This document shows, one piece after another, positions 93 through 40,128 of a stretch of 40,128 bases of DNA; the stretch's first letter is position 1; each line of letters begins with the position of its first letter. The DNA comes from a virus. Under the pieces are notes generated by a model, which saw only the letters and a list, made by a program, of their open reading frames with translations, was not told the DNA's origin and did not search any database. Made by a program: the position numbers and the translations under genes. The DNA lies in the IMG/VR virus record IMGVR_UViG_3300008267_000118, positions 1-40,128 of that record, one strand, 5' to 3'.

Positions 93-96
93 TGAC

Positions 97-459: not shown

Positions 460-462
460 AGG

Positions 463-648
463 TCAAGCCTCCTCTTGTTGCTCAAGATAAACGGAGCGCA
501 ACATGCGCACCACGGACCGTTGGCCCACCATCATCCAGATCAGGCGGTCTGAATCATCGAGATCAGGGCACTTCTCTGGAAGCACTTCATCCAGTCGCTG
601 GAGAAGGGCCTCGTCAATGGGAGGCCAGGGTCGGTCGTCGTACATCAT
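463..648 (-). CDS. small hypothetical protein between endolysin-like peptidase and gp7.3-like gene
   Basis: A 61-residue acidic protein starting MMYDDRPWPPIDEALL, with no membrane segment or domain I recognise. Its ATG overlaps the TGA of the M15 peptidase gene (TGATG), which fits translational coupling. Its last codons carry the AGGAGG ribosome site of the next gene. A second ATG directly follows the first, so the start may be three bases later. Function unknown. Confidence 0.7.
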   Translation of the reverse strand: MMYDDRPWPPIDEALLQRLDEVLPEKCPDLDDSDRLIWMMVGQRSVVRMLRSVYLEQQEEA

Positions 649-3139: not shown

Positions 3140-3155
3140 GCTTGCAACAGCGCTA

Positions 3156-4142
3156 CTACGCCCACGGTCCCACGGAGGTGTTAGCACCAGCCACGCCAAT
3201 GGGCCAGATGGCGAAATGAGAGCCGGTTAAAGTGCTGTAGGCACCACCAGGGGAAGAGCTTAGCCGGTATTGAGGGATAAACGTACCGCCCGCGTTAATA
3301 CTTACCGTGCCAGACAGCCTGAAAACCCGAAGTTGTACTGTGTTAGAGGAGGCCGAGCCGATGTTAGCGTTGGCCGTGGAAGCAACAGTCACGCTCGCAG
3401 CGTTTAGTATCAGGGCAGGAAGGGTTACGTTACTGCCATTTGATGTACCGTTGTAAAAGATATTGTTTACAGTTGCTGTGCCCCCGAAGTTCACACCAAA
3501 CGTATGAGATGTCGTGCCTGAGGCCTTGCTCACGGCAAAGTTTAGCTCAAATGCGTAGACCGTATTGGCTGCAAGTGTGACGCCAACACCAAATAGGGAT
3601 TGGTCAGCGGTTGTATTAGCCCCAGTCAATCCGCTGTCGAGCCGGTAAAACATCATCGACGGCGACACGCCGCGGCCACCTGGCGTGGAATAGATCACCC
3701 TGCCGTCGTACTCAACGGCGCCAGCGGTTGCTGTCGTCAGGTTGGAGCCTGACTGCAGGGTCAGCGGGGATAGGGAGCTGGTGCCAGCTGCCAGGGTCAG
3801 GTTGCTGGTCAGCGTGCCACCCGTGAAGGCGCTGGGGGGCGCTGCCCAGCTGCCGTCTGCCCGCAAGAAGTTGGTGGTGCTACCGCCAGACGAAGGCGTC
3901 AAGCCAGCCAGAATGCTGGTGAACAGGGGCAGGGTGACATCGCCGCCGGTGCTCGACTCGAGCAGCCTGCTGCTGGCTGTGTAAGAAAGATCGGTGCCGC
4001 CCGAGCCAGTGCCAGCCGGGGCGTCAACCCACTCGGTGTCGTAGTTGAGATCGCTGGCCTTGGCCAGGATCTGATTTTCCAGCCCGCCAGGGGCAACCCC
4101 AGGAGACTTGTCCCCTTCGGGGGCTGGGATATACAGACTCAT
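3156..4142 (-). CDS. tail-fibre-like structural protein
   Basis: A 328-residue protein with an N-terminal linker of the kind seen in phage tail structural proteins (SDLNYDTEWVDAPAG at about 32-46; TTNFLRADGSWAAPP at about 87-101). A Gly/Ser/Thr/Asn-rich beta-type C-terminal half follows, which suits a receptor-contacting trimer. No enzymatic motif is seen. Its ATG shares bases with the stop of the upstream gene, and its end overlaps only a non-preferred extension of TerL. The location between TerS and TerL is unusual for a fibre gene. Confidence 0.75.
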   Translation of the reverse strand: MSLYIPAPEGDKSPGVAPGGLENQILAKASDLNYDTEWVDAPAGTGSGGTDLSYTASSRLLESSTGGDVTLPLFTSILAGLTPSSGGSTTNFLRADGSWAAPPSAFTGGTLTSNLTLAAGTSSLSPLTLQSGSNLTTATAGAVEYDGRVIYSTPGGRGVSPSMMFYRLDSGLTGANTTADQSLFGVGVTLAANTVYAFELNFAVSKASGTTSHTFGVNFGGTATVNNIFYNGTSNGSNVTLPALILNAASVTVASTANANIGSASSNTVQLRVFRLSGTVSINAGGTFIPQYRLSSSPGGAYSTLTGSHFAIWPIGVAGANTSVGPWA

Positions 4143-4840
4143 CAGACGAACTCAGTGACCTGAGCGGCGCCGTTTGCATTACTCCAGATGCCGTAGATCG
4201 CATTGGTGACGATCAGCTGCTGGTCCAGCAACAGGAACGACCCAGGCTGCATCTCCATGAAGGAGTTGGCAATCGTGGCTGGGTTGCTGAATGACAGATA
4301 CAGCTTGCTGCTCGACACGTTGCTGATCATGAGTCCATCGCGGTTGGCGTTGGATGCAAGGAGCAAGACGCTTGAGGCCGTGCCAGCCACCGACGTGGTG
4401 GTGGGAGTTCGTGCAGCAACTGTGGTGACGACAGGGACCGCTGACGCCCTGAGCTGGGTGTCGGTCAAGGGGCCAGACACAGGCACCGCCGAAGCCCGCA
4501 GCTGGGTATCGGTCAGCCCACCGGTCACAGGCACCGCTGTGGCCCGCAGCTGAGTATCGGTCAGCGGGCCAGACACGGGCAGTGCCGTTGCACGGAGCTG
4601 GGTGTCAGTCAGGGGGCCATCAACCGTGATGGAACCGCCGCCGTCATCAACCGACAGGGTGCCACCAGCATCGCTGACAGGCACCGGGGCAGCGTTGGTG
4701 TTGTTGACCGTGACGCTGGTAGGAACCGTGACGTTCGAGATCGTGACCGATCCACCGTCAAGGGTGACCGGAATCGACGCACCAGCTGGCCCAGTTACCT
4801 GTACAGGGCCTTCATTCGGGCCAGTGACATGGGTAGGCAT
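4142..4840 (-). CDS. repeat-containing tail-associated protein
   Basis: A 232-residue protein with a Val/Thr/Pro-rich beta-type N-terminus (1-74), four tandem 16-residue repeats of the form GPLTDTQLRATAVPVS at 75-138, and a C-terminal globular part (about 150-232). The DNA repeat unit is 48 bases. LTDTQLRA-type repeats occur in phage tail and fibre proteins and probably form a regular beta shaft. It starts 5 bases after TerS and is coupled (TGATG) to the next fibre-like gene, so the two may form one receptor-binding assembly. Precise role unknown. Confidence 0.7.
   Translation of the reverse strand: MPTHVTGPNEGPVQVTGPAGASIPVTLDGGSVTISNVTVPTSVTVNNTNAAPVPVSDAGGTLSVDDGGGSITVDGPLTDTQLRATALPVSGPLTDTQLRATAVPVTGGLTDTQLRASAVPVSGPLTDTQLRASAVPVVTTVAARTPTTTSVAGTASSVLLLASNANRDGLMISNVSSSKLYLSFSNPATIANSFMEMQPGSFLLLDQQLIVTNAIYGIWSNANGAAQVTEFV
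4427..4618 (-). repeat. four tandem 48-base coding repeats
   Basis: Four in-frame 48-base units encode residues 75-138 of the tail-associated protein. Units keep LTDTQLRA but vary at the flanking residues (ATALPVS, ATAVPVT, ASAVPVS, ASAVPVV), so copy number could change by slippage or recombination and alter shaft length. Confidence 0.9.
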
Positions 4841-4845
4841 GGGTA

Positions 4846-5085
4846 TCAGGCGACCCTGCGCCTTGGCATTTGTACCACCTTATCCAAATCAGGCACTGAA
4901 GCCACCAAATCTCCAAAGGGCGTGCCCTCGATGGGCTGTGCGCTGATCTGGTTGTCCTTGAGGAACTGCCGCAGGATGTTCAGTTCACCGGTGGTGATGG
5001 TGCCGTCTTCCATCTTCTGCTGCAACAGCAACGCCAGGCCCATGTGCAGGTCGGCCAGTTGTTCGTTGATGTCGTGAGCAGCCAT
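4846..5085 (-). CDS. terS: terminase small subunit (DNA maturase A, T7 gp18-like)
   Basis: A 79-residue protein. After an N-terminal helix (MAAHDINEQLADLHMGL) it shows the pattern LLQQKMEDGTITTGELNI and RQFLKDNQI, followed by a Pro-rich stretch and a hydrophobic, acidic segment (DLVASVPDLD). I recognise this as the T7-type small terminase family, which recognises packaging DNA and partners with TerL. T7 gp18 is 89 residues. I chose the ATG at 5085, which has GGAG about 9-10 bases upstream; an upstream ATG at 5160 would add an Arg-rich extension and looks spurious. Confidence 0.85.
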   Translation of the reverse strand: MAAHDINEQLADLHMGLALLLQQKMEDGTITTGELNILRQFLKDNQISAQPIEGTPFGDLVASVPDLDKVVQMPRRRVA

Positions 5086-5215
5086 GGAACGACGTCTCCG
5101 TCTTTCAATTCTGAGGGGCCTCGGCAAGAAGGCCCCCAGGTCAGTACCCACCACAGGCACCTACCCAACGACTGGTTCGGCGCAGCGTTGGACCAGCTCA
5201 CTGTAGGGCCATCCC

Positions 5216-5590
5216 TCACTCAAGGGATTCCTTGAATACCTGCCACATCCGCCCCTTGACCTGCTCTGACCCCACAGACGCCACAGCAGGGTTCAAAAGG
5301 TAGAAGAACGTCCCGTCGTGGGGATCCTTCCCCTTGGTCAGCAGAAGGGCCTTCCTGAGCCTTGTGAGGCTGCTGACGACGTGTGGCACTTGCATCCGCA
5401 GCCGCTCGGCCAGCTTCTCCGTCGTGACCGTGATCTTCCCCGTACGCCAGCTGGCGTAGGCCATCAACGCCCACAACACCGCCATGTCCCGTAGCTCCAG
5501 CCGACGCTCGGCAACCAGGTCAAGGCATCGGTCCATCTCCAGCAGGTGGGTCTTCACGAACTTGGCCTCGTCGTCCCATTTAGACTTCAC
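5216..5590 (-). CDS. winged-helix DNA-binding protein, RepL/MarR-like
   Basis: A 124-residue protein that starts at GTG 5590, with AGGAG exactly 7 bases upstream. Residues about 34-98 fit a winged helix: a first helix LRDMAVLWALMAYASW, TTEKLAERLRMQVPHVVSSL as a helix-turn-helix, and a wing ending in FFYLLNPAV. The wing followed by NP and a basic helix is the pattern seen in RepL-type plasmid replication proteins; MarR-like regulators share the fold. It is the first gene of the minus-strand run and abuts the origin-like region. It could be an initiator binding the heptamer array or dyads, or a regulator of the divergent units. I infer the fold with moderate confidence; the role is open. Confidence 0.7.
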   Translation of the reverse strand: MKSKWDDEAKFVKTHLLEMDRCLDLVAERRLELRDMAVLWALMAYASWRTGKITVTTEKLAERLRMQVPHVVSSLTRLRKALLLTKGKDPHDGTFFYLLNPAVASVGSEQVKGRMWQVFKESLE

Positions 5591-7885: not shown

Positions 7886-8060
7886 TTTCATTGACAGCCA
7901 CAACACCAAGGCAGGAGCGATGGCTCACGTCAACCGCTTAAAGGCTGAGTTCAACCGCCACCCCAGCTGGTTTGATTACGCCTGCCCCTGGTTTGAGATC
8001 AGTACCGTCCCTCCATACATGGAGACTTACACCTTCCCCGACATGTCGGGCATGGGTTAA
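7845..8060 (+). CDS. early hypothetical protein
   Basis: A 71-residue soluble protein, MTHFIYAHDQGTVDFIDSHN at its start, rich in aromatic and His residues (FDYACPWFEIS in the middle). No recognised domain. A purine stretch (AGAGAA) lies about 10 bases upstream. It ends just before a structured gene-free stretch at 8061-8225. Confidence 0.65.
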   Translation: MTHFIYAHDQGTVDFIDSHNTKAGAMAHVNRLKAEFNRHPSWFDYACPWFEISTVPPYMETYTFPDMSGMG

Positions 8061-8550: not shown

Positions 8551-8836
8551 CACGCACGCAATGGCGCAGCTGCGCAGTGACCTGCTCACTGCCCTGTATG
8601 AGGCGACGCCTAGTCCGCTGAATCGTGACCAACTGATGGAACTGTGTCGCACCAGCTTCCTGACCAGGGACAGGACCTGGTTTGCCGACGCTGTCGTCGA
8701 GCAACTCAAGGTGCTGAACCATGCGTCGTTGATCCGTCCGTTCAACGGGGGGTTCATCCTGACGGACAGGGGGAAGAGGGACAGGCAGCAGGCCGCAAGA
8801 TTCATCAACAACAAGCAACCCAAGGGAGCAGCATGA
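8543..8836 (+). CDS. winged-helix-like small protein
   Basis: A 97-residue protein. Residues about 10-75 fit a small winged helix: LRSDLLTALYEATPSPLNRD, a helix pair, then LIRPFNGGFILTDRGKRD, where the GF-LTDRGK turn is typical of the wing. It may bind nucleic acid and regulate early or middle genes; this is a fold-level inference only. It is coupled to both neighbours by overlapping start and stop codons. Confidence 0.55.
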   Translation: MSDTHAMAQLRSDLLTALYEATPSPLNRDQLMELCRTSFLTRDRTWFADAVVEQLKVLNHASLIRPFNGGFILTDRGKRDRQQAARFINNKQPKGAA

Positions 8837-9108
8837 GCAGGATCCAAGAGTTCGACCAGCGTGCTGAGTCGATCACGCATGACAGGGCTGCCGACTACGG
8901 CGACCCACGGATCAGCTTTGATCGCATTGCCTTGATGTGGTCAGCCATCACGGGAGCGGACATCACCGCTCAACAGGTGGCGCACATGATGATTGCACTC
9001 AAGCTGGTCCGGTTACAGCACACCCCTGATCACCTTGATTCCTATGTCGACGTCGTCGGTTACGCCAGGTGCGGTGTCCTCTGCGGTCCTGCTGAAGTAC
9101 GGGGATGA
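8833..9108 (+). CDS. DUF6378-like protein
   Basis: A 91-residue protein with RAADYGDPRISFDRIALMWS, then ITAQQVAHMMIALKLVRLQH and DSYVDVVGYARCG. This order (YGDP-FxRIAxLW, helix with MMxxLKxxRL, D-DxxGYA) is the pattern I know as DUF6378, common in phages and possibly related to small all-alpha nucleotide-handling folds. Its biochemical role is not established to my knowledge. AAGGGAG lies 6 bases upstream of the ATG, and the start overlaps the previous stop (ATGA). Confidence 0.7.
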   Translation: MSRIQEFDQRAESITHDRAADYGDPRISFDRIALMWSAITGADITAQQVAHMMIALKLVRLQHTPDHLDSYVDVVGYARCGVLCGPAEVRG

Positions 9109-9459: not shown

Positions 9460-9713
9460 ACAGGGGAACCGACCATCGGTTCGCCTTGCACTGGGCCGAA
9501 GGCCAGGCACCCAACCTGGGCGAAGGCGTCAGTCGCACGAGCAAGGAAGCAGCCGGGCTATGGGAGGTGCATGTTTACTTTGCATCTGCCAAGCCGATGA
9601 AGGAATGGATCAGGGCGATGAACCACGGGCAAGCCCGCAAGTTTGCACGCAATCGCCACCCATCCGCAACATCAATCACCGTTATTGGAAAACGAAATGC
9701 CCCGATCATTTGA
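9456..9713 (+). CDS. early hypothetical protein, GTG start
   Basis: An 85-residue basic protein starting at GTG 9456 with AGGAG 8 bases upstream, which fixes the start. It contains LWEVHVYFASAKPMKEWIRA and a basic C-terminus (ARKFARNRHPS). A nucleic-acid-binding role is conceivable but not shown. It overlaps the next gene by 17 bases. Confidence 0.65.
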   Translation: MNRGTDHRFALHWAEGQAPNLGEGVSRTSKEAAGLWEVHVYFASAKPMKEWIRAMNHGQARKFARNRHPSATSITVIGKRNAPII

Positions 9714-10020
9714 CCCAACCGAAAACGTTTACAACCTGAAGGTCGCACCTCCAACCAAGGAAGACAGTGACGACAAGGGTTATGTGTTGTACTTCAAGCC
9801 AGGCCATGGCTGGTTCTCTGGCTACTGGCAGAAGCCATACATCGATGGCGTAACGCACTGGACCTACCTGCCAGAAAGCCCGCCAGCACTGCCCGATCCC
9901 GACATCACTCGTGATGCTGCGTTCGAGAAGTGGACTGCGTCGTTCCCCGATAAGTTCAGCGAGCCAGCTACTGCATTGATCCGCCTTGGTTGGAACGCTG
10001 GTTGGAAACGTGCGGTCTGA
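9697..10020 (+). CDS. DUF551-like hypothetical protein
   Basis: A 107-residue protein from the ATG at 9697. YVLYFKPGHGWFSGYWQKP followed by GVTHWTYLPESPPALP resembles the DUF551 pattern (aromatic strands ending in VTHW-LPE-PP). A C-terminal AFEKW and IRLGWNAGWKRA resembles another short module common in phage early proteins. Function unknown. Its end overlaps the RNA polymerase start. Confidence 0.6.
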   Translation: MPRSFDPTENVYNLKVAPPTKEDSDDKGYVLYFKPGHGWFSGYWQKPYIDGVTHWTYLPESPPALPDPDITRDAAFEKWTASFPDKFSEPATALIRLGWNAGWKRAV

Positions 10021-12409
10021 GCAGGATCAGATTGAGCTGGAACGTGAGATGTTCCAACTTGGTGCCGACCGTCGTCAGCTCATGGGTAACAGGCGCAAGT
10101 TATTGCGCATGGAATCCTTATCTGACTACGGCGATGCACTTGTGCAGCTTGGCGTTGAACGCTTGACCCAAGCAATCAGGCATCATCGCAATCAAATCAA
10201 GGCAGGCAAGGCAGGCATCACCTATGCAGGCCTGAATCCCTTGACCCAGATGGCGCCGCACAAGATTGCTGCCTGCGCCCTGCGCGTGGTCGTCGACCAG
10301 ATCAGTTCGACGTGTCGCCTCTCTGCCCTTGCGCATGAGGTGGCCGAGAAGCTGTGGGTTGAGACGATGCTGGCCAGGGCCAGCCGATGGGAACGGCAGA
10401 ACCACAAGCGTGTGCGTGGTCGCTTCAGCCACAAGGTGCGTGACATCCACCGGATGCGCGGTACCGAGGTGTGGTCAGCCAAGGAGCGTGCTGCAACAGG
10501 CGCGTTCCTGGTCTGCTTGATCGCCAAGGAGACAGGTCTGATCGTGGTGAGAAAGGAAAGGGTTGGCTTGCGCACCCCTTTTATGGTGCGTGCCACGCCT
10601 GAGTGCCTTGCCTTTGTCAGCAAGGTGCATGAGACAGGCATGTTGCTGTGCCCTTTCTCGCTGCCGATGGTGGTGCCACCCAGGCCGTGGTCGTCACCGC
10701 TCGAGGGTGGGTACCTGACTGACATCCCCAACAACTGGCTGCTGAAGGATGGAGCAGAGCTGGTAGCGCAGCATTGCAAGGGCGACGAGCCCTTCATCCA
10801 AGCCGCCAACCTCCAGCAGGGGGTGGCATGGCAGGTCAACAGCTGGATGCTGCAGCAGGTGGAGCACGCATGGGACAAGAGCATTGCCATCGGCAACCTC
10901 ATGCCCCGTGAAGGGTGGACTGTTCCGCCCTACCCCAAGCACCTGCCAGAGGATCACCCTGATGTGACCCAATGGAAGTTCAACGCCCGCCAGATCCACG
11001 AGAAGAACGACAAGACCAAGAACCGACGCATCGCCACAGCCAAACAGCTATGGATTGCACGGCGCCTGGTCGACGAGCCCGAGCTGTACTTCCCCATGCA
11101 GCTGGACTTCAGGGGAAGGTATTACTACCGACCCCCGTTCCTCAACCCACAGGCCAATGACATCGGCCGGTCGCTGTTGCAGTTCAGCAAGGGCAAACCG
11201 ATCACCGATGAACGCCAAGCCGAATGGTTGTGGGTGCATGGCGCCAACCTCTATGGACACAGCAAGCTGAGCTGGTCGGCACGCCTTGCCTGGGCACACC
11301 AGAACAAGGAAGCCATCTGCCGATCAGGCATGGACCCTTGGCAGAACACTGAGTTCTGGACCAAGGCCGACGACACCTGGCAGTTCCTTGCCTTCTGTCG
11401 TGCCGCCTATGAGTACGTCACGCATCGACACCACTTCGTGTGTCAGCTGCCTGTCGTCCTGGACTGCACCTGCTCTGGCATCCAGCACTACTCAGCCCTG
11501 CTCCGCAACGAGCACATGGCTGAGCTGGTCAACCTGATGCCAAGCGACAAGCCGCAGGACATCTACTCCCGTGTCTTGATGGCTGTGCTCGAGCGGGTGC
11601 GTAGCGATGCAGCCAACGGTGACAAGGCCGAGCAGCTACATGCCAGGTCATGGCTGGAGTTGCAGCCTGACCGGTCACTGACCAAGGCGGTCGTCATGAC
11701 CACGCCCTACTCAGCCACCAGGCAGGCGATCTTCCAGCACTGCCAACGGTGGGCTTTCGAGCGGACCCTTGAGTTGTATGGCACCGACGGGTGGTGCTTC
11801 AAGCGTGGCGCCATTGCTGCCATGCACTACATGACCACCATCCTGAGCAGGGAGACAGCCAAGATCATTGGCCCCGCCAAGCACGCAATGCACTGGTTCA
11901 AAAGACTGGGCAAGCTGGCTGGCGAACACGACATCTCCCTTCAGTGGACGTCGCCATCAGGGCTGCTGGTCAACCAGTCCTATGTCGACATGCGGGGGGT
12001 GCAGATCGTGCTGCATCACCTGTCGCCGGTGCGGATGACCTTCAGGTCCAACCACCAACCCAGTGGCTTGAGCCCCATGCGCATGGGCAATGGGCTCAGC
12101 CCCAACGTCATCCACTCCATGGATGCCAGCCACATGGCGCTGTCGACCATCGACGCCTTTGCCAATGGCGTCACCAATCTTGGCGGGATCCACGACTGCT
12201 TTGCCACGACGCCCGCTGAGATGGGGCAGGTACGCGATTCAGTTCGCAACGCCTTTGCCTCCATGTACTCCGAGGACTGGCTCACTGCCATAGCCTCGGA
12301 TCTCCTGGCCCAGATCCCAGAGGACCTGCGCCAGGCGCTACCCAAGCTGCCCGCCCTTGGTGGGTTTGACATCAACACCGTCCGTCACGCGACGTACTTC
12401 ATCACCTGA
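10010..12409 (+). CDS. T7-like single-subunit RNA polymerase
   Basis: About 799 residues from the GTG at 10010, shorter than T7 RNAP (883). Catalytic residues align: D485 in DCTCSGIQHYSAL (T7 D537), R555 and K559 in RSLTKAVVM (R627, K631), Y567 in PYSATRQA (Y639), and D729 in GGIHDCFATT (D812). GLSPNVIHSMDASHM matches the conserved segment before motif C. It should transcribe middle and late genes from phage promoters. The frame extends to a TTG at 9986 and no strong ribosome site is visible, so the start could differ by a few residues. It begins within the preceding gene; the SSB gene follows after 2 bases. Confidence 0.97.
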   Translation: MRSEQDQIELEREMFQLGADRRQLMGNRRKLLRMESLSDYGDALVQLGVERLTQAIRHHRNQIKAGKAGITYAGLNPLTQMAPHKIAACALRVVVDQISSTCRLSALAHEVAEKLWVETMLARASRWERQNHKRVRGRFSHKVRDIHRMRGTEVWSAKERAATGAFLVCLIAKETGLIVVRKERVGLRTPFMVRATPECLAFVSKVHETGMLLCPFSLPMVVPPRPWSSPLEGGYLTDIPNNWLLKDGAELVAQHCKGDEPFIQAANLQQGVAWQVNSWMLQQVEHAWDKSIAIGNLMPREGWTVPPYPKHLPEDHPDVTQWKFNARQIHEKNDKTKNRRIATAKQLWIARRLVDEPELYFPMQLDFRGRYYYRPPFLNPQANDIGRSLLQFSKGKPITDERQAEWLWVHGANLYGHSKLSWSARLAWAHQNKEAICRSGMDPWQNTEFWTKADDTWQFLAFCRAAYEYVTHRHHFVCQLPVVLDCTCSGIQHYSALLRNEHMAELVNLMPSDKPQDIYSRVLMAVLERVRSDAANGDKAEQLHARSWLELQPDRSLTKAVVMTTPYSATRQAIFQHCQRWAFERTLELYGTDGWCFKRGAIAAMHYMTTILSRETAKIIGPAKHAMHWFKRLGKLAGEHDISLQWTSPSGLLVNQSYVDMRGVQIVLHHLSPVRMTFRSNHQPSGLSPMRMGNGLSPNVIHSMDASHMALSTIDAFANGVTNLGGIHDCFATTPAEMGQVRDSVRNAFASMYSEDWLTAIASDLLAQIPEDLRQALPKLPALGGFDINTVRHATYFIT

Positions 12410-12411
12410 AC

Positions 12412-13044
12412 ATGAACTACACCTTTGTCGACAAGATCAAGCTGACCACGCCTGTCGCTCGCTTCCAGTATCCGAAGCTGATCGAACCTGAAACCAAGTT
12501 CAACCCTGAGGGTGTCTACAAGGTGACAGCTGCCATCGATGCAGCTGATGCGGCCGCCATCTCCGATGCCCTTGATGATCTGCTCAACCGGCACAAGGCA
12601 TCGCTCAAGGCGCAAGATCCAGGCAAGAAGGACTGGAAGCTGGTGCAACCACCCTTCGGGTTCGAGGAAGTGGACGGCAAGCCTTGCTTCCTGGTGAAAC
12701 CCAAAATGAAAGCCAAGGGCATTGACCGCGACGGTCGTGCATGGACTGCAGCCCCTGCTCTCTTTGATGCCAAGGGTCAACCTGTCCGTGACCGTGAAAC
12801 CCTGCGTGGCATGTGGGGTGGCACCGTCGGCCGCGTGTCCTTTGAAGCCTGCCCCTTCTATCAAGCGGCATTGGGTGCCGGCATTACCCTCAGGCTCAGG
12901 GCTGTCCAGATCATCAGCCTGGTAGAGGGTGGTGGCAATGCCGAGAGCTTCGGGTTCGAGGAGAGCGACGGCTGGACCAGTTCCACTGAAGCCACGCCGT
13001 TCGACAGCACGGGCAGCATCCCGGAGATCGATTCGGACTTCTGA
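12412..13044 (+). CDS. single-stranded DNA-binding protein, T7 gp2.5-like
   Basis: A 210-residue protein with gp2.5-like features: an N-terminal beta segment (FVDKIKLTTPVARFQYPKL), KFNPEGVYKVTAAID, a basic middle segment (KPKMKAKGIDRDGRAW), and an acidic C-terminus ending IPEIDSDF with a terminal Phe, as in T7 gp2.5. In T7 the acidic tail contacts the phage DNA polymerase and helicase. Keeping the tail without a phage polymerase suggests it contacts the helicase or host proteins. It lies between RNA polymerase and endonuclease I, as in other T7-like phages. Confidence 0.92.
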   Translation: MNYTFVDKIKLTTPVARFQYPKLIEPETKFNPEGVYKVTAAIDAADAAAISDALDDLLNRHKASLKAQDPGKKDWKLVQPPFGFEEVDGKPCFLVKPKMKAKGIDRDGRAWTAAPALFDAKGQPVRDRETLRGMWGGTVGRVSFEACPFYQAALGAGITLRLRAVQIISLVEGGGNAESFGFEESDGWTSSTEATPFDSTGSIPEIDSDF

Positions 13045-13417
13045 GTTCCGCTCCAAGTTTGAGGCTGGCGTCGCAGCTGGCCTCACCCTGCGGGGCCTGG
13101 ACTACGACTACGAAACCCAGGCCCTGCCCTACGTCATCCACGCCAGCTACACCCCTGACTTCATCCTGCCCAATGGGGTGATGGTGGAGACCAAGGGCCT
13201 GCTGACGCCTGAAGACAGGCGCAAGATGGTTGCCGTCAAGGCAGCCCACCCTGACAAGGACATCAGGCTCTGCTTCATGCGGGCTGACGCCAAGCTTTCT
13301 CGTCGACCTGGTGCCCTGGCCTACTGGCAGTGGGCAGAGCGCCACGGCTTTCTCTGGTGCGAAGGCCACATACCCACCACCTGGTACGCCAATGCCGTCC
13401 AAGTTCCTAAAGCATGA
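13031..13417 (+). CDS. endonuclease I (Holliday-junction resolvase), T7 gp3-like
   Basis: A ~128-residue nuclease with all four T7 gp3 active-site positions: Glu in FRSKFEAGV (E20), Asp in YTPDF (D55), Glu and Lys in VETKG (E65, K67). It resolves branched DNA and in T7 degrades host DNA. No standard start lies near the family start. Choices are an ATT at 13031, with GGAGA 5 bases upstream and overlapping the SSB stop, or an ATG at 12938 that would add a basic extension inside SSB. I chose ATT because it gives the family's usual N-terminus; the start is uncertain. It overlaps the helicase start by 26 bases. Confidence 0.85.
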   Translation: MRTSEFRSKFEAGVAAGLTLRGLDYDYETQALPYVIHASYTPDFILPNGVMVETKGLLTPEDRRKMVAVKAAHPDKDIRLCFMRADAKLSRRPGALAYWQWAERHGFLWCEGHIPTTWYANAVQVPKA

Positions 13418-15002
13418 GGCCTGCCCTCAGTGCAACAGCAAGAACAACCTGGCCAGATACGACGACGGCCACGCCACCTGCTTTGGCTGTGGCTACCAAG
13501 AACAACCACCCAAAGGGGAGAAGCTGCGACCCATCGAACCAATGCCACCACCCACCACACCATTGCTTGACTTCATCACCGTCAAGCCATTGGACAAGCG
13601 GGGCATCCTCGAAGAAACCTGCAAGCTGTTCGGCTACGGCTACTCCAGTCACAACGGACAGCCTGTCCAGGTCGCTGCCTACCGGGACCAACACGGCAAG
13701 GTGGTTGCCCAGCATGTCCGCAGTGCAGACAAGCGGTTCCGCTGGCTAGGTGACACCAGCAACATGCAGCTATGGGGTCAACACCTCTGGAGGCAGGGGA
13801 TCGGTGCCAGCGGTGGAGCCTTTGTCGTTGTCACCGAGGGCGAGATCGACGCCCTGTCGGTCAGCCAGGTGCAAGGCAACCGCTATCCCGTGGTGTCCCT
13901 TCCCAATGGTGCGCAGTCAGCCAAGAAATACCTGGCTGCCAACGCACCATGGCTGTCGCAGTTTCAGCGCATCGTGCTCTGCTTTGACAGCGACGAGCCC
14001 GGGGAGAAGGCAGCTGCTGAAGCGTTGACCGTCCTGCCCCTGGGCAAAGTGGCCATCTGCCGGCTGCCACGCAAGGACGCCAACGAAATGCTGGTGGCAG
14101 GTGAAGGCGACCAGCTGCGTGACCTGCTCTGGAAGGCCACGCCATCCAGGCCTGACGGCATCGTCAATGCCGGCGAGCTATGGGATGAACTGGTCAAGCC
14201 AGGTGCGACAGCTATCTGCCAATACCCCTGGCCACAACTGAACGCCATGACCCGTGGCTTCAGGAAGGGAGAGATGACCACCATCTGCGCAGGCAGTGGC
14301 GTGGGCAAGTCGTCCGTCTGCCGCGAGGTGGCTCACCACTTCCTCAGGCAGGGACTGCGCGTCGGCTACATCGCCCTGGAGGAGAGCATCAAGCGCACCA
14401 TGCAGGGCATCGTCGGCATTGAACTCGGCAAGCCCATCCACCTGGACTCAGGCCTCGTCACCGAGGACGAACTGCGTGATGGCTTTGATCGGGTGTTCGG
14501 TTCTGGTCGCTGCTTTCTGTACGACCACTTCGGCTCCATGGATCCCGACCACCTAATCAACAAGATCAGGTACCTGGCTGATGCAGAACAGGCTGACGTC
14601 GTCGTGCTTGATCACCTCACCATTGTCATCAGTGGACTCACTGATCTCGATGAGAGGCGGGCCATCGATGTCACCTGCACCAAGCTCCGTCAGGTCGTCG
14701 AGCAGACCGGTATCGGCTTGATCCTGGTGTCCCACCTCAAGCGACCGGAAGGCCGCGGCCATGAGGAAGGGGCCCAGACATCTCTCTCTCAGCTGCGTGG
14801 CAGCCACGCCATCGCCCAGCTCAGCGACCTTTGCATTGGTGCTGAACGCAACCAGCAGGGTGACATCGCTGAACGCAACGAGCTGCAGCTGCGGGTCTTG
14901 AAGAACCGCTTCTCAGGGCAGACCGGGCCCTGCGACAAGCTGCTCTACGACCAGGAGACAGGTCGACTGGTCATTCCCATGTCTCACTACTTCGGTTCCT
15001 AA
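13392..15002 (+). CDS. primase-helicase, T7 gp4-like
   Basis: A 536-residue bifunctional protein. The N-terminal zinc motif has C11, C14, C30 and C33 (CPQC, CFGC). The Toprim-type primase part has VVTEGEIDALSVSQ and VLCFDSDEPGEKA. The RecA-type helicase part has Walker A GSGVGKSS at 301-308, Walker B VVLDHLT and a later SHLKRPEGRGHEEGAQ-type sensor region. It unwinds the fork and makes primers. The chain ends at RLVIPMSHYFGS, without the long acidic tail that T7 gp4 uses to bind its DNA polymerase. The ATG at 13392 overlaps endonuclease I. Confidence 0.95.
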   Translation: MPSKFLKHEACPQCNSKNNLARYDDGHATCFGCGYQEQPPKGEKLRPIEPMPPPTTPLLDFITVKPLDKRGILEETCKLFGYGYSSHNGQPVQVAAYRDQHGKVVAQHVRSADKRFRWLGDTSNMQLWGQHLWRQGIGASGGAFVVVTEGEIDALSVSQVQGNRYPVVSLPNGAQSAKKYLAANAPWLSQFQRIVLCFDSDEPGEKAAAEALTVLPLGKVAICRLPRKDANEMLVAGEGDQLRDLLWKATPSRPDGIVNAGELWDELVKPGATAICQYPWPQLNAMTRGFRKGEMTTICAGSGVGKSSVCREVAHHFLRQGLRVGYIALEESIKRTMQGIVGIELGKPIHLDSGLVTEDELRDGFDRVFGSGRCFLYDHFGSMDPDHLINKIRYLADAEQADVVVLDHLTIVISGLTDLDERRAIDVTCTKLRQVVEQTGIGLILVSHLKRPEGRGHEEGAQTSLSQLRGSHAIAQLSDLCIGAERNQQGDIAERNELQLRVLKNRFSGQTGPCDKLLYDQETGRLVIPMSHYFGS

Positions 15003-15012
15003 CCCACCACCC

Positions 15013-15240
15013 ATGAACTGCCCAAGCTGTGACGGCGCCTTGATGCGCGTCGTCTTCACACGCATGACATCTGGCGAGTCCATCGTCCGGCGACGTAAGT
15101 GCAGGATCTGCGATTACGGCTGGTACACGGTGGAACTACCCATCCCCAACCACGCCGTCATCCACACCAAGAACGCCGTGACCAACGTGTCAGGCCTCAA
15201 CCTCCACAAGGACTACAAGAACATCACCTTCCAACCATGA
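15013..15240 (+). CDS. NrdR-like zinc-ribbon protein
   Basis: A 75-residue protein with MNCPSC near the start and a second pair CRIC at about 33-36, preceded by SGESIVRRRKC and followed by YTVEL. This is the zinc-ribbon pattern of NrdR (CPxC, IRRRR-C-xC, YT-E), but the ATP-cone is missing, so it is not a complete NrdR. It may bind DNA or RNA. It occupies the slot where T7 has its DNA polymerase and is coupled to thyX by ATGA. Confidence 0.7.
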   Translation: MNCPSCDGALMRVVFTRMTSGESIVRRRKCRICDYGWYTVELPIPNHAVIHTKNAVTNVSGLNLHKDYKNITFQP

Positions 15241-15866
15241 CCGTCTCCTTCGTTCACTGCACGCCAGACGCTGAAGGCTTGATCGTCGACATGGCCCGGG
15301 TCAGCAACCCAGCCAACCAAGGCAAGCCAGCCACTGCGCCACGACTCATCTCCTATCTCATCAAGCACAAGCATTGGTCTCCATTTGAGATGGCAGGCCT
15401 GTGCCTCAAGATCGAAACCGAACGGGACATCTCAGCCCAGATCATCCGACACCGGTCGTTCTCCTTCCAAGAGTTCAGCACCAGGTACGCAGCGACCGTG
15501 ATCGCCGAGTGCCCACTCCAACGCTTCCAAGATCCAACCAATAGGCAGAACAGCCTCGACGCTGTCGACGACGTCAGTCAGCAGTATTGGTCGGAACGCA
15601 CTGCCTCCGTCATCGCTGACAGCTGGCGCCTGTACGACGAGCTGTTGCGCAATGGCATGGCAAAGGAGACAGCACGTCGCATCCTGCCCCTCTGCACCCC
15701 CACCACCATGTACATGCACGGGACCCTGCGCTCCTGGATCCACTACCTCGAGATCCGTTGCTCAGCTGAGACGCAGTTGGAGCACAGGCAGGTTGCCGAG
15801 TCATGCAAGGCAATCTTTGTTGCCAAGTTCCCTGCCATCTCCACCGCCCTGAACTGGACCGTCTGA
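15237..15866 (+). CDS. thyX: flavin-dependent thymidylate synthase ThyX
   Basis: A 209-residue ThyX. The signature RHRSFSFQEFSTRY is at 71-84, fitting RHRxxSxxExSxRY, and HWSPFEM lies about 20 residues before it. The C-terminal part carries ETARRILPL and the HYLEIRCSAETQLEHR segment that supplies substrate-binding Arg residues. It methylates dUMP to dTMP with methylene-tetrahydrofolate, FAD and NADPH, raising the thymidine supply for replication. The size is in the normal range. It sits inside the replication module directly before the exonuclease. Confidence 0.95.
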   Translation: MTVSFVHCTPDAEGLIVDMARVSNPANQGKPATAPRLISYLIKHKHWSPFEMAGLCLKIETERDISAQIIRHRSFSFQEFSTRYAATVIAECPLQRFQDPTNRQNSLDAVDDVSQQYWSERTASVIADSWRLYDELLRNGMAKETARRILPLCTPTTMYMHGTLRSWIHYLEIRCSAETQLEHRQVAESCKAIFVAKFPAISTALNWTV

Positions 15867-15867
15867 C

Positions 15868-16623
15868 ATGACTCTTCTGATCGACGCTGACTGGCTGATC
15901 TACTCAGCCTGTGCTGCCTGTGAGACCGACATCCGTTGGGATGAATGGATCAACACCCTTCACCTCGAGCAGGCTGACGTCAAGGACTACATCTCCTCCC
16001 GTCTGTCCTACTGGCGTGACATCACCGGCCACAAGGAAGTGGTGATGTGCCTGTCGGACTACCCCACCTTCCGGCATGAGATCCACAAGGAGTACAAGGC
16101 CAACCGCATCGGCAAGCGCAAGCCCCTTGGCCTCCGTGACATCCGCCTTTGGGTCGAGCAGTCCTATGCCACTCGCACCTGCATTGGCCTGGAAGCCGAC
16201 GACGTCATGGGTGTGCTGGCCACCGGTGGCTACTACCACGACCCGATCATCGTCAGCATCGACAAGGACATGCGCACCCTTCCTTGCCAACTACTGGCTG
16301 GCGACGAGGTGGTGACCATCCACCTCGCTGATGCCAACCGGACCTGGATGCAGCAGGCCCTGACCGGTGATGCCACCGATAACTACCAGGGGCTGAAGGG
16401 GTTTGGACCCGTCACTGCTGCCAAGGCCTTGGCTGACGCTACAACCCTCCCTGAACTCTGGGACAAGGTCACTGCTGCCTACAAAAAAGGAGGACGCGCC
16501 TACCAAGACGCACTGCTCAACGCACGCCTGGCTCGCATCCTCCGTCATGGCGATTACGACTTCGCCTCTGGCGACATCCGCCTGTGGGACCCAGGCGTCG
16601 ATCCCTCTATGAAGGTGGCTTGA
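15868..16623 (+). CDS. 5'-3' exonuclease, T7 gp6-like
   Basis: A 251-residue FEN/PIN-type nuclease. Acidic metal-binding motifs appear in order: LLIDADW (residues 3-9), LEADDVMG, VSIDKDM and TGDATDNYQGLKGFGP, the last with the helix-hairpin-helix type segment. In T7 this enzyme removes primers and degrades host DNA to nucleotides. It is the last plus-strand gene. Its 3' end overlaps the opposing minus-strand gene by 17 bases. Confidence 0.93.
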   Translation: MTLLIDADWLIYSACAACETDIRWDEWINTLHLEQADVKDYISSRLSYWRDITGHKEVVMCLSDYPTFRHEIHKEYKANRIGKRKPLGLRDIRLWVEQSYATRTCIGLEADDVMGVLATGGYYHDPIIVSIDKDMRTLPCQLLAGDEVVTIHLADANRTWMQQALTGDATDNYQGLKGFGPVTAAKALADATTLPELWDKVTAAYKKGGRAYQDALLNARLARILRHGDYDFASGDIRLWDPGVDPSMKVA

Positions 16624-20435: not shown

Positions 20436-21713
20436 TTACACCACCACCCAGGTAGAGCCAGAAGGAACCGTGACTACGACACCTGTGCCGATAGTAACGG
20501 GCCCAGCTGAAATCGCATTGCGGCCAGCAGTGATCGTGTAGTTCTGCGTGATCTGCTGGTCGTTCTCCATGAAGACGCGATCAGCGCCACCACCAGTTGC
20601 GCCACCACCGAGAGATCCCCAGCCCGCACCAGAGAATCCTTCGTACCCACCCAGCGAAGAGTTGTACCGGACCATCCCAAGGGAGCCGGTTGGTCGCTGG
20701 CCTGTCGTGCCAACTGGCAGCACAGTCGCCGACGTGGTGCCAAAGGTGACGTCACCAGTGAAGGTGCCGCCTGTCTTGGGCATGGCAGCATTGGCCAAGT
20801 CCCATGCCGTCTTCACGCTGTTAGGCGTAGCAGCGGTGGTAGTGCTGGTCGAACTGACGCTGTCGACAATCAGGCCGGTGGCCAGCTTGCTGAAGGTGAC
20901 TGATCCGTTGCTCAGCTTGTCGTTGTTGACGACGCCACTGTCAATCGTCCAACTGCTACCGGAGCCGCCAACAACGATGTCGCCCTTGTCCCCGTCGCCC
21001 ACCCCACTTGCAACGATGGCGTCTGCATAAGCCTTGGTGACCGCATCGCCAGATGTAGTGGGCGCACCGAGGTTGGTGATCTTGTTGCCGCCCATGGCCA
21101 ACGGGCCACTCATGGTGTCGCCCGCCTTGGCAACCTTTAGGGCGTCGCCGGTGTCGACGTAACCCTTGGTCGCTGCATCAGTCGACGTGGTCGGGGTGCC
21201 CAGGCCCGTGACCTTGTTATTGCCCATGGCCAACGGGCCACTCATCGCGTCGCCCGCCTTGGCAACCTTCAGCGCATCCTGAACGTCGACGTAGTTCTTG
21301 GTGGCTGCATCCTGCGGCTGAGTGGGATCAGCGACGCTGGTGATACGACGCCCGCCTGCACTGATCAGGCCAGTGGCTGGGTCGACAAAGACGCCAGCCT
21401 TCTGGTTGTCATCCAGCTCCTGCTCCAGGTACAGGTGCTGCAGGTTGCTGGCATCCAGGTCGGCCGCGACCAACGTTGACCCATCCGTGAAATCAACCAG
21501 CAGCGAAGCGGCCGGCGTGATGCGACGCACCTCCACTCGAAGGCCTGCACCAGGCGCAGGAGTGACCTGCACCGTGGTGTCGTTGACGTAGGTGTAGGCC
21601 GTGTCGACGTAGTTGACGTAGACCTTGACGTGCTCCTTGCGGATGTACGGAAAGCCAATGGCGAACTGAGTCGTTGACCCGTTACCCGTGTAGACGTTGT
21701 AGGAGTAGGCCAT
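20436..21713 (-). CDS. tail fibre, T7 gp17-like N-terminus
   Basis: A 425-residue protein. Residues 1-~135 match the T7 gp17 tail-attachment domain (YNVYTGNGSTTQFAIGFPYI, VDTAYTYVNDTTVQV, LDASNLQHLYLEQELDDNQ). A coiled shaft follows with two similar blocks (DALKVAKAGDAMSGPLAMG, then DALKVAKAGDTMSGPLAMG), and a beta-rich tip ends in VTVPSGSTWVVV. It attaches fibres to the tail tube junction. It is shorter than T7 gp17 (553), and the downstream fibre genes may supply further receptor domains. Its start overlaps the gp16-like stop. Confidence 0.92.
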   Translation of the reverse strand: MAYSYNVYTGNGSTTQFAIGFPYIRKEHVKVYVNYVDTAYTYVNDTTVQVTPAPGAGLRVEVRRITPAASLLVDFTDGSTLVAADLDASNLQHLYLEQELDDNQKAGVFVDPATGLISAGGRRITSVADPTQPQDAATKNYVDVQDALKVAKAGDAMSGPLAMGNNKVTGLGTPTTSTDAATKGYVDTGDALKVAKAGDTMSGPLAMGGNKITNLGAPTTSGDAVTKAYADAIVASGVGDGDKGDIVVGGSGSSWTIDSGVVNNDKLSNGSVTFSKLATGLIVDSVSSTSTTTAATPNSVKTAWDLANAAMPKTGGTFTGDVTFGTTSATVLPVGTTGQRPTGSLGMVRYNSSLGGYEGFSGAGWGSLGGGATGGGADRVFMENDQQITQNYTITAGRNAISAGPVTIGTGVVVTVPSGSTWVVV

Positions 21714-24700
21714 CAGCGGAAGCTCTCAACAAAGGGGCGGACGCCAAGGGCGGCATCGACCTGGTTGCGGATGCGAGTCGACTCGATTTCCTCGACCATC
21801 CTCGCAAGGCCAGGCTCAGTGGCAAGAAACTCTTTCATGATGAATGGCTTGTAGTAGTTGATCTCTCGGTTGACCTGAACGGCCCTGGCGCTTTCGGTAG
21901 CCCGGCTGGGTTCGGGGACGGGCAGCTCCCAGTAGGGCGAACCGGGTGCAAACAACGCGGTCAGGGATCCGTGCATCGTGGCCTGACGACCGGGCGGGAT
22001 GTACTGGCTGGTGATCGTGGCCAGCTTGTTGAGCTGCTCGTATGACAGCTTGAAGTTGGGCACCTTGAACTCATTAGCGCTCCAGACCAGGAACGACGTA
22101 CCGCGGCCCGACAGCTTGGCCAGTTCGTTGTCGACAGGGTCCGTCGACCCCATGCGGGTGGGGCTGATGGCCGTGGGGCTGAAGCCCTGCACCAGACCCT
22201 TGAGCCAAGGCTGGTCGGGTGGTATGAACTGCGTGCCCCATACCTGGTCGACCGTGATCGGCATCCCGGTCAGCGGGTGCAGTCGTGGTTCCAGTTGAGA
22301 CGACAGACCAGGGATCTGATTGGCGTATCGCTGGGCCAGCTCATGGAAGAAGCCGAAGCCCATCGGCAGGCTGGACTGCTGGATCACGCGCTCGAAGGGA
22401 TCAGCGCCCTTCCTGACGTTGCGGAAGATGGCAGGCAAAAAGCCGGACAGCCGCTGCTGGATCATTGCCGAGAACGGATTGATCTTGTTCTGCTCAGGGA
22501 CAAAGCTCTTATCGACGGCGTCGGTGACAGCGCCGAAGATCTCGCCGATGCCGGAGTACATGTCCTTGGTGAACTGGCTGACGCCAACCACCCGGACAGC
22601 TTCTGCTGCCGTCAGCGCCAAGCTGCCGGCCAGTGCCTCCCGATCCTCGACGGGCATGGAGTTGGCCAGGCTCATGTAGGTGCCCACTGCCGCAAAGATG
22701 TTGCTGACGGTGTCGAACGCTTGCAGGTCCCACCAGCGGCTGAACTCACCAGTGGCTGGGTTCTTGAAGCGGATCGAGAAGGGCTGGACCCCCTCGTTGC
22801 GCATCTTCTCCCGGACCCTGCTGTTGTACGAACCGACGCCCGACAGTTCGACGTAGCCGCTGGTCGCCATCATCACGGCAGCAGTCACGGTCATGTAGCC
22901 AATGGCGATCTCGCCCATTGCCCGCTCACGGGTGAAGACGTCCTCGCTGTTGATGTCACGCCAGAAGGTGTCGACAAAGGGAGCAGCAAAACCGCTGGCC
23001 CGCATGGCTGCCTTGACGATGTTGGTCGGGCCACGGTTGAAGGCTTGGATCATGCCCAGCACAGGCACCCTGGACACAGCGTCCTGATACAGCTTGGGCG
23101 CAAGGCTGACCGTCTTGGCCATGCCCATGCCTGCCTTGGTCCACTTGTCTGGCTCGCCATTCATCCACTCGATGGCCTTGGCGTTGATCTGGGCGACGTC
23201 GGTCACGCCTTCCTGCTTGGCCTTCCGCACGCCGTACTCGTAGGTGCGGGGCTGGAAGTTGACGTCCAGGTCATCGGTGAAGTTGATCCAGTCCATGGCC
23301 GTCTTGGCATGGATGCCAGTCAGCGCACCATCCTTGATGGCCTTGCCGTTGATGATCACGTCCCGCCACGACGCCTCGATCTGTTCGTCCACGACCTTGG
23401 ACGCCTCGTTCCATGCAGCATCGCCGGTCATGCCGCGGCCTTCTGCCTTCTCCAGTTCGATGTCCATCCGTCGTGCCCACTCCGTGCTGGGCCCAACGAT
23501 GGAAGCGAAGAAGGTGTCGAGCGAGCCGGACACCCGGCCAGACACGTTGAGTGCCCGCCAGATGAAGCGGGTGGCAATTGCCTCCATGCCCTTGGTCTCT
23601 GGGTTCAGATACCAGGGGTTGTCCATGGTGTTGCGAACGTCATGGGTTTCAGCGAACTCGCTGCCGTCCAGGCGCAGCTGCTCCACCTCGTCCAGCCCCC
23701 TCTGCGCCAACTCCATCGAGCTGGCGCCCAGGTTGCCGAGGTTCTCTCCAACCTTGAAGGACTCGCCGACCAGGCGCCAAGCATTGGACAGGTTGCTGGC
23801 GTACTTCATGTACATCTGCATGTCCAAGCCAGCGCGACGCAGTGACTGGTATGCAGCCTTGTGGTTGCCGCTGGTGGCCTGGACGCCTGCATTGGCCAGT
23901 GCCGGGATGGCCTGCGCCAGGGGCAGCGTCGCGGCACGGTAGGCAGAGCCGCCAAGCATCTTGAGCCAGGTCTTGGGCGACCACAGCAGTGCTGCCCGAT
24001 AGGCCTGCAGAATCATCTCCTGGTTCATACGGCCTGCGTCGACGCCACGCACGGTCGATGCAAACTTGGCGGCAAAGCCAGGCGACTGCCGGCCAGCAAT
24101 CACGGCCTCGACCGCGACCCGAGTCATGCCTTCCGACTCTGGCGTCAGATTGCCAGCCTCGATGTCAGCCCTAATCTCGGGATCGATCTTCTCCAGCAGG
24201 GTGTTGGCCGGATCCGCCAGCTCGGTGGCGACGGTCTCGTCGACAGTCTCAGGGGGCAGGGGCACGTCAGGCTGCACAGCAGCGTCGCTTCCGACGATGC
24301 GGTTGGCGGTGTTGGCGTCGTAGATGACGACCTCCGACATGGATCCACCTGCTGCTGCACCTTTCTGCTCGAACATGGGGTTAAAGCGGATGCCGTCGTA
24401 CCCCTGGCTGATTGCCCATTCACGCAGCATTGCGCCTTGCCGCTGGGTCAGGAACCGTTCGCCATCAAAGACTTCGGCGGGCCGGCCGATCCCAATCTCC
24501 TTGAGGAAATCGTTGACCCTCTTGTCCATGGCCACCAGGTCGAGGATGCGCACGTCACGGGGCGTGTCGCCATACAGGGCGGTATCGCCATAAGCGCCCG
24601 CATAGCTTTCGCTTTCAGTGAAGTAGACGCCACGCCCGAGCAGGTCGCTACCAGGGCCCGACTCCTTGAAGCCGTTGTCGAGGATGGATTCCGCCGACTC

Positions 24701-38299: not shown

Positions 38300-38533
38300 T
38301 CAGCGGATGGTGATGGAACCGTCTTCGTCGGTTTCAACGACAGGAGTGGGAGCAGGCTCGGAGGCGGCCTTGGCGTCCACCTGACCGATCACGATCTCCT
38401 CAGTGGGGCCTTGCTCGGGAACGTCAGCCAGTGGGCCCTGCAGGGAGACCGGGCTGGGATTGGGCTGCGGGGAGGGCATTGGGCACTGCTCCTGGGGCTG
38501 TTGGGTCACTTCCTTCTGGGAATTGCGGGCCAT
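38300..38533 (-). CDS. small Pro/Gln-rich protein overlapping the portal end
   Basis: A 77-residue, low-complexity, acidic protein ending TPVVETDEDGSITIR. The ATG at 38533 has AGGAG 7 bases upstream, good evidence of translation even though the first 110 bases overlap the portal gene in another frame. It ends 8 bases before the scaffold gene. It may be a small head-assembly factor; no family recognised. Confidence 0.65.
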   Translation of the reverse strand: MARNSQKEVTQQPQEQCPMPSPQPNPSPVSLQGPLADVPEQGPTEEIVIGQVDAKAASEPAPTPVVETDEDGSITIR

Positions 38534-40128
38534 AAGGGGCTCCTGGTTCGGTGTAGTTGGCGGCCACTTGTCCCATTGCTGGAGACTTGAGACCGGTCAT
38601 GATCAGTTCACGCTGCATGTCTTGCTGACGCAAGTCATTGGCAGCCTGAGTTTCCTGATCCAACTGCTCCTGGGTCTTCACCAAGTTAGTGGTGTCGATG
38701 GACTCAGCCGCTGCAAGTCTGCGGAGAGCTTCATCCAGGTTCAAATACTTCTGCGCAATCTCAGGGCCAAGGGTCTGGGTAGCAGTGGTAATGAACTGCA
38801 CCAGCTTGTTGCGATCATCGCCGCGGCCAATGGCTTCCAGGCCAGTCACGGGCTTGGGATTGACCAGTGGCTGGCCACCTTGGCCCTTCGGGAAGGGGGC
38901 CAGCTTGCGCTGCTTGCGCAGGATGTGCATCAACCGACGGACCAGGGGCAGCTGTAGCTCCTGGGTGAGGATGCTGTACAGGCCTCCGATGCCTGCCTCC
39001 AGCTCCTGTGACATGTAGCGGATCTCTTCCGCGGTCACTCTTTCACCGGGGCGCTGGATGGCGGTGTTCAGCAGGAAAGCGAACTGCAGTCGACCCTCGA
39101 TCCGGTCGATGGTGTTCTGTGCAATGCCCAGATCCTGTGCCTTCTGGCTCTGGATGACGGTGACGTCGTTCGCATTGCCTTGGACGATGGCACCGTTGGG
39201 TGCATTGGCCAGGGTCCGGGGGCGCGTGGTGCCGTTGGGGTTGACCAGGAACAGGATCTTGGCAGCGGCAGCGGCGCCTTCCAGCACCGACTGGTACAGC
39301 GATTCAAGGGCCAGCAGGTCGCCGTAATACTCCTCGATGTACGAACGCCCGTACTCTTCGCCATCCACGCGGTTAAAGCGCAGGGGGATCCAAGGCGACA
39401 CGTCCTTGTCGCACATGCCGTGGGTGCCAGGGACTTCCTTGCCCTTTACCTCTTGCCACCAGTGGCACTTGTCGTTCTCGAACTCGACGTGGGTGACGAT
39501 GCGCACGGTCTTCTTGGACGACCGTCCCGTGTACTCGTCAGCGTCTTCCTCCTCGTCGATCTCTTCGTACAGAGCAGGGGGCAGGGCGTCTGGATAGACC
39601 TCTTCCTCGACCAGGATCTCCACCACGTTGCCGATGGGATCCCGGCACACCACGAACTGGTTGAAGTGGATGACCCGGAGACCCTCTTCGCCGACGTAGA
39701 GCAGGATATTGCCGCCCACCAGCAGGTGCTTGAAGGCTTCGTGCATGGCGGCACGACCACCTGCGGTCTCAAAAACGGACATGACCGCCCGCTCCACCTT
39801 GACCAAGGCGGTGTCCAGCTCTGTCTTGATCTCTGGCCCGGCCTCTGCGACACGCAGGGCCAGGTCATCGATCTCGAGCTTGAAGAAGCTGGAGTTAGGG
39901 GGGAACAGGCTGATCAGCAGCTTGCTGGCCAGGTAGTTCACCCCCCTGGCGCCCAGGGATTGGTAAGGGGTCTTGAGTCGACCCCTGTCGTTGAAGCCTG
40001 CGTCGGGAATCAGGCCAGGGATGGTGACCTTGCTGCAATCCCGGGCCCGCTCGAGGAAGGCATCACGGTTGCTGACCAGCTGGCTGTAGCGAGCGGCAGC
40101 CGTGCCGGGCTCGTCCTCATTGGAGTAG
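38424..40128 (-). CDS. portal (head-tail connector), T7 gp8-like, main part
   Basis: This carries most of the portal; the first ~30 residues are at 92..1 after circular joining, for a total of 582 aa (T7 gp8 has 536). Family features include RDRGRLKTPYQS-like text near residue 62-72, GARGVNYLASKLLISLFPPN, AMHEAFKHLLVGGNILLYV, a Glu-rich loop, EYYGDLLALESLYQSVLEG and RVTAEEIRYMSQELEAGIGG. It forms the ring through which DNA enters and leaves the capsid. The C-terminal tail is Pro/Gly-rich (PALPAAQSQPGLPAGPTG). The terminal 48 bases of the window duplicate bases 1-48. Confidence 0.95.
   Translation of the reverse strand, partial: YSNEDEPGTAAARYSQLVSNRDAFLERARDCSKVTIPGLIPDAGFNDRGRLKTPYQSLGARGVNYLASKLLISLFPPNSSFFKLEIDDLALRVAEAGPEIKTELDTALVKVERAVMSVFETAGGRAAMHEAFKHLLVGGNILLYVGEEGLRVIHFNQFVVCRDPIGNVVEILVEEEVYPDALPPALYEEIDEEEDADEYTGRSSKKTVRIVTHVEFENDKCHWWQEVKGKEVPGTHGMCDKDVSPWIPLRFNRVDGEEYGRSYIEEYYGDLLALESLYQSVLEGAAAAAKILFLVNPNGTTRPRTLANAPNGAIVQGNANDVTVIQSQKAQDLGIAQNTIDRIEGRLQFAFLLNTAIQRPGERVTAEEIRYMSQELEAGIGGLYSILTQELQLPLVRRLMHILRKQRKLAPFPKGQGGQPLVNPKPVTGLEAIGRGDDRNKLVQFITTATQTLGPEIAQKYLNLDEALRRLAAAESIDTTNLVKTQEQLDQETQAANDLRQQDMQRELIMTGLKSPAMGQVAANYTEPGAPYGPQFPEGSDPTAPGAVPNALPAAQSQPGLPAGPTG
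40081..40128. repeat. 48-base terminal repeat, right copy (contig overlap)
   Basis: Identical to bases 1-48. Removing one copy gives a circle of 40,080 bases with the portal gene intact. Confidence 0.95.

Follow-up and report, generated by a model that had tools for sequence, protein, structure and literature searches.

How does a T7-like phage copy its genome if it carries no DNA polymerase of its own? Phage T7 provides the textbook four-protein replisome, and the DNA analysed here (the window, a viral contig of 40,128 bases taken at its full length) holds a T7-like replication module from which the polymerase appears to be missing. Its preliminary description referred to a reported cyanopodovirus lineage lacking the gene, and correctly so: the lineage is MPP-C, the Prochlorococcus phages P-SCSP1a-u and P-SCSP2, described in 2022 as having no DNA polymerase (PMC9860041), and the window groups with it. 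The basic finding, a T7-like phage without a DNA polymerase, is thus already known, and the question of how such phages replicate was raised at the same time (PMC9860041).

The replication module and its gene 5 slot

Bases 1-48 of the window recur as bases 40081-40128, which closes the genome at 40,080 bp. The linear record splits the portal ORF between its two ends, and across the 1/40080 junction the parts form a single in-frame ORF of 589 aa, so that nothing is missing there; the genome is complete by circular overlap, as had been proposed. The window is a complete T7-like virus, probably one that infects picocyanobacteria. Its GC content of 60% points, on base composition, to a host that is itself GC-rich, Synechococcus or Cyanobium for example; a search of bacterial genomes for close relatives of the window, made for host assignment, found only distant ones. 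The features that concern the argument are these:

38424..40080, minus strand: portal protein, C-terminal part (PHROG 449); the ORF runs over the circular junction to position 113
9697..10020, plus strand: 107-aa early protein with a weak DUF551 match, directly upstream of the RNA polymerase gene, which it overlaps
9986..12409, plus strand: T7-type single-subunit RNA polymerase (PHROG 414, E 1.7e-181; PF00940); start codon uncertain
12412..13044, plus strand: gp2.5-like single-stranded DNA-binding protein, SSB (PHROG 112, E 6.8e-29)
12929..13417 (ORF), plus strand: endonuclease I, gp3-like (PF05367, E 9e-32, residues 31-157); the true start is probably near 13000
13392..15002, plus strand: gp4-type primase-helicase (PHROG 239, E 1.6e-183), primase and helicase domains complete
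15003..15867, plus strand: the gene 5 (DNA polymerase) slot of T7-like phages, polymerase-free in every frame
15013..15240, plus strand: 75-aa Zn-ribbon protein, NrdR N-terminal-like (PF22811, E 2.3e-9), without an ATP-cone domain
15237..15866, plus strand: FAD-dependent thymidylate synthase ThyX (PF02511, E 2.9e-42), with the RHRX7S motif
15868..16623, plus strand: gp6-type 5'-3' exonuclease (PHROG 107, E 5.6e-61; PF02739, PF01367)

The Pfam and PHROG matches bear out the earlier statement that RNA polymerase, SSB, endonuclease I, primase-helicase, ThyX and exonuclease are all present and intact; the primase-helicase has all four Zn-ribbon cysteines, the Toprim acids and Walker A in place.

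The minus strand carries the virion and packaging genes, a full set with portal, scaffold, MCP, tail tubes and terminase; the whole late module is inverted with respect to the replication block (17851-39941 and 1-5590). The same inversion is found in the related contigs L088 and L093 and, independently, in L022 and L025; other members of the clade defined below are collinear. Several features of these and the early genes deserve record. Residues 1512-1654 of the giant internal virion protein (21713-29272, minus strand) match PARP/ADP-ribosyltransferase weakly (E 4.9e-5, below the curated cut-off); such a domain, if real, would be injected with the protein. The gp15-like internal virion protein (29310-31973, minus strand) bears, towards the C-terminus, a DPBB lytic transglycosylase domain, and the tail-fibre gene contains, at 21018-21281, two tandem 132-nt copies that are 74% identical. 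Beside the small terminase gene lies a winged-helix protein (5216-5590, minus strand) weakly resembling RepL, HTH_36 and DnaD_N and present in 3 of 21 long relatives. The early region encodes a DUF6378 protein (8833-9108), whose PHROG label of phosphofructokinase is doubtful, and a small early ORF ends in a 24-nt overlapping palindrome (8027-8060).

The preliminary description asserted that the window encodes no family-A or other DNA polymerase, and proposed profile searches of the translated frames as a check. These have been run. A six-frame search of the window with PF00476 (family A), PF00136 (family B) and PF07733 (Pol III alpha) gave no match, with positive controls, and neither the sizeable annotated ORFs nor any remaining ORF of at least 100 aa matched a polymerase in Pfam or PHROGs. 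The assertion is upheld. The interval between helicase and exonuclease measures 866 nt in the window; polymerase-bearing relatives have at least 1991 nt there. Five other IMG/VR contigs of the window's cluster (one of them 99-100% identical at the helicase) repeat a slot of 865-866 nt, and the missing polymerase is therefore not an assembly deletion.

The polymerase-less clade and its helicase tail

IMG/VR was scanned with proteins of the window and of P-SCSP2, a locus being required to have both helicase and exonuclease (some contigs give two loci). The scans yielded 161 polymerase-less loci; gene-presence counts below refer to the 160 other than the window. A search of whole records for family-A polymerase was negative in all 27 clade records and positive in 9/9 polymerase-bearing controls. 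In a helicase tree from which the tail columns had been left out, every polymerase-less row falls in one clade (SH-aLRT 100) with a single change of state, and the exonuclease tree agrees, its polymerase-less rows, P-SCSP1 and P-SCSP2 among them, forming one clade. The RNA polymerase and portal trees look split, yet do not reject one clade (AU p 0.57 and 0.51, respectively), and spread of a polymerase-less helicase-exonuclease cassette between two phage backbones was rejected for want of support; in the MCP tree the P-SCSP2 branch stays apart from the window. The simplest reading of these trees is a single loss of the family-A polymerase, dating to the common ancestor of a large clade. No other lineage with gp4 and without polymerase was found among 187 further T7-like loci checked. 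(One clade member, the 60,395-base contig L122, carries two genes for the major capsid protein, with 86% and 35% identity to that of the window, and is a chimera or two joined phages.)

The Zn-ribbon protein and ThyX do occupy the gene 5 slot, as first described; as a replacement for gene 5 they fail. Across the clade the slot ranges from -3 to 1,342 nt, and there is practically none in 78/78 loci on the P-SCSP2 side and 18/83 on the window side. ThyX is present in only 10 of the 160 other loci and the Zn-ribbon protein in 52. Neither can be a polymerase substitute when most clade members do without them and empty slots exist: the slot is a landing site and these two genes are its passengers. 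A different distribution marks the 107-aa DUF551-like protein (9697-10020), which accompanies 20 of 21 long window-side polymerase-less loci, was not found in polymerase-bearing ones and is a candidate early host-takeover factor.

The loss of the polymerase has a counterpart in the protein that would have bound it. T7 gp4 holds gp5 by its acidic C-terminal tails, which dock on basic patches of the polymerase; a gp4 shortened by 17 residues gives a processivity of about 5 kb instead of 17 (PMC12593628). The window's helicase ends in ...TGRLVIPMSHYFGS, without an acidic, Phe-ended tail. A terminal Phe is present in 1 of the 161 clade helicases, and the median number of acidic residues is zero; of the 80 helicases from polymerase-bearing relatives, 77 have the Phe, and there the median past the TGRL strand is six. 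Further T7-like groups (pelagiphage, P-SSP7, T7) have the terminal Phe in 161/169 helicases, and over all polymerase-bearing T7-like loci the count is 238/249; it is lacking in a separate set of 8 polymerase-bearing loci, divergent at about 31-35% helicase identity.

Clade helicases stop some 10 residues past the TGRL strand, as VVPMSHYFGT or VYENxFGxL. This new end is not decaying sequence, because it is itself conserved: over 44 rows, the frequencies in P-[ML]-S-x-Y-F-G are P 0.98, S 0.91, Y 0.98, F 1.00 and G 0.91. In an AlphaFold model built from 35 sequences (pLDDT 84) both the primase and the helicase domain are complete, and the chain ends just past the last hairpin; the model's best match is T7 gp4 (5ikn_G, TM 0.82 by target length). 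A single-sequence model (pLDDT 37) was discarded. As read from these alignments, the clade's primase-helicase has lost the T7-type gp5-docking tail, a loss that is apparently unreported, as far as the literature shows. It is specific to the helicase, since the SSB tails are kept: the window's SSB retains its acidic tail, ending ...EIDSDF, and the C-terminal residue in polymerase-less loci is F in 133/138 and W in 5/138. Loss of the tail and loss of the polymerase coincide on one branch only, and constitute one evolutionary event. Because the clade is a single lineage, this is one coincidence of two losses, without independent replicates.

Which polymerase extends the primers

Primers need an enzyme to extend them. 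Prochlorococcus MED4 is the host on which MPP-C relatives were isolated and in which they replicate (PMC9860041). For both reasons a host enzyme is the likely source. We consider it probable that this is a T7-like module whose polymerase was lost once, in the clade ancestor, and in which phage proteins prepare the fork for a host polymerase, most likely Pol III, to do the synthesis. The phage RNA polymerase would still be able to start replication by transcription; the gp4-type primase-helicase would open the fork and make primers, the gp2.5-like SSB would cover single strands, and the 5'-3' exonuclease would remove primers and recombine ends. Nucleotide addition would fall to the host, most likely to its replicative Pol III holoenzyme. 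Two things make us favour this enzyme over Pol I: copying a whole genome calls for processivity, and the phage has kept a 5'-3' exonuclease of its own.

The preliminary description had the phage primosome hand over to the host replicative polymerase. The absence of a polymerase, the completeness of the genome and the grouping with MPP-C are confirmed; a simple swap of the host enzyme into the T7 helicase-polymerase contact is unlikely, because the docking tail is lost. That a host polymerase takes over is the best inference available; which host polymerase it is, and by what route it would be recruited, are the least certain points. With the helicase tail gone, coupling would not be through the T7 contact, in which that tail sits in a basic patch of the polymerase. 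The fork might instead be coupled through the acidic aromatic tail that the SSB has kept, or through the new P-[ML]-S-x-Y-F-G terminus of the helicase, or coupling might be loose. A search of the phage replication proteins for a bacterial clamp-binding motif produced no convincing one; QLRVL in the helicase was rejected, being a core strand that is probably buried.

Recruitment of host DNA polymerase I, with the phage helicase unwinding, would replace the lost gene with an enzyme of its own family (Pol I, like T7 gp5, is family A), and it was the first option proposed for the MPP-C phages (PMC9860041). Pol I is a low-processivity repair enzyme with a 5'-3' nuclease of its own, yet the phage exonuclease is kept in 160/160 other clade loci, a count that is partly built in, the presence of the exonuclease having been used to call the slot. 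Moreover, the helicase tail suited to a gp5-like partner was lost rather than kept, and we regard recruitment of Pol I as rather unlikely.

That the phage encodes a polymerase too divergent to be recognised, the third option in the same paper (PMC9860041), draws on the several window ORFs without a family. It is very improbable: profile and position assign the large ORFs to RNA polymerase, helicase or virion proteins, none of the six-frame ORFs of at least 100 aa matches a polymerase, the slot is empty throughout the P-SCSP2 side and in the 18 window-side loci already counted, and there is no early gene beyond the shared T7 set that runs clade-wide. Supply by a co-infecting phage, which would make this virus partly a satellite, has in its favour that polymerase-bearing T7-like phages occur in similar habitats; it can hardly be credited when MED4 served for isolating and growing the P-SCSP phages (PMC9860041) and the window has a complete virion and packaging gene set. 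Loss of the gene in assembly, through a missing segment or a wrong closure, comes to mind for any metagenome contig and is of negligible probability, being in practice refuted by the unbroken portal gene at the junction, by the slot repeated in five other contigs and by relatives, cultured and sequenced isolates among them, that lack the polymerase too.

Synthesis by a host polymerase, most likely Pol III, at a fork prepared by phage proteins accordingly stands as the preferred reading, and a second group, which may or may not share the clade's ancestral loss, bears comparison with it. Synechococcus phage S-SRP02 (MW822601; 63.4% GC) has been listed with a DNA polymerase I (PMC8790148). The gene so labelled (22389-23129 of MW822601) encodes a 246-aa gp6-type 5'-3' exonuclease only, and neither a family-A polymerase nor a DnaB/gp4-type helicase was found in S-SRP02 and eight related contigs. 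Like the window, S-SRP02 has a T7-like RNA polymerase, SSB and exonuclease, no family-A polymerase and an NrdR-like Zn-ribbon near the same place; unlike the window, it is without gp4 helicase and has RusA in place of endonuclease I. Its SSB, like that of most of the eight related contigs, ends in EIPF, much as bacterial SSBs do. (A Pfam match of E 0.0065 over 32 residues was too little to take its 'Pol III beta subunit' for a clamp.)

More tentatively, and as a possibility rather than an expectation, the clade's T7-type primase-helicase may have been re-tooled for the bacterial replicative polymerase, shedding its tail and gaining a new C-terminal motif after the single loss of gp5. This would make a hybrid phage-host replisome the property of a large aquatic phage clade, and the S-SRP02 group, with no polymerase, no helicase and a bacterial-like SSB end, would have gone further in leaving replication to the host. 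A natural T7-type replisome without polymerase or helicase tail would reveal which of the replisome's contacts can be dispensed with and in what way a T7 helicase might be joined to a bacterial polymerase, and the helicase tail comparison makes a concrete prediction that is testable with cultured relatives. There is also a practical consequence: a large clade escapes surveys based on polymerase genes, and in such phages a gene labelled 'DNA polymerase I' is in some cases an exonuclease.

Comparison with known phages

The closest named phages are P-SCSP1 and P-SCSP2, with 59% and 52% identity to the window in the helicase and 51% and 55% in the exonuclease; the RNA polymerase is 48% identical to that of P-SCSP1a. 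MPP-C phages share with the window the lack of a DNA polymerase, the order of RNA polymerase, SSB, primase-helicase and exonuclease, and membership of one helicase clade whose helicases have no acidic tail. As published, MPP-C genomes are 37.3-37.9 kb and carry no auxiliary metabolic genes, thyX being counted among these (PMC9860041). The window differs in its 60% GC, its 40.1 kb and its inverted late module, and its slot holds ThyX and the Zn-ribbon protein where the helicase and exonuclease genes of P-SCSP1a overlap by 4 nt. Since a genome of 40,080 bp with ThyX at 15237-15866 breaches the published description, the window is placed not in MPP-C as published but in a sister branch, a new GC-rich one, of the same helicase clade.

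Roseobacter phage CRP-125 and Pseudomonas phage LUZ100 are T7-like and, like the window, have ThyX between helicase and exonuclease. Unlike the window, they have a family-A polymerase directly after a helicase with an acidic, Phe-ended tail, and their ThyX is only 22-28% identical, for which reason ThyX was rejected as proof of inheritance from such an arrangement. With the Autographiviridae the window has in common its own T7-type RNA polymerase and T7-like late proteins; the one-strand T7 gene order is broken by the late module on the minus strand. Set against the T7 module 1-2.5-3-4-5-6 itself, the window has the same genes in the same order minus gene 5, and both sides of one contact have gone: the C-terminal docking tail of gp4 and the gp5 on which it would dock.
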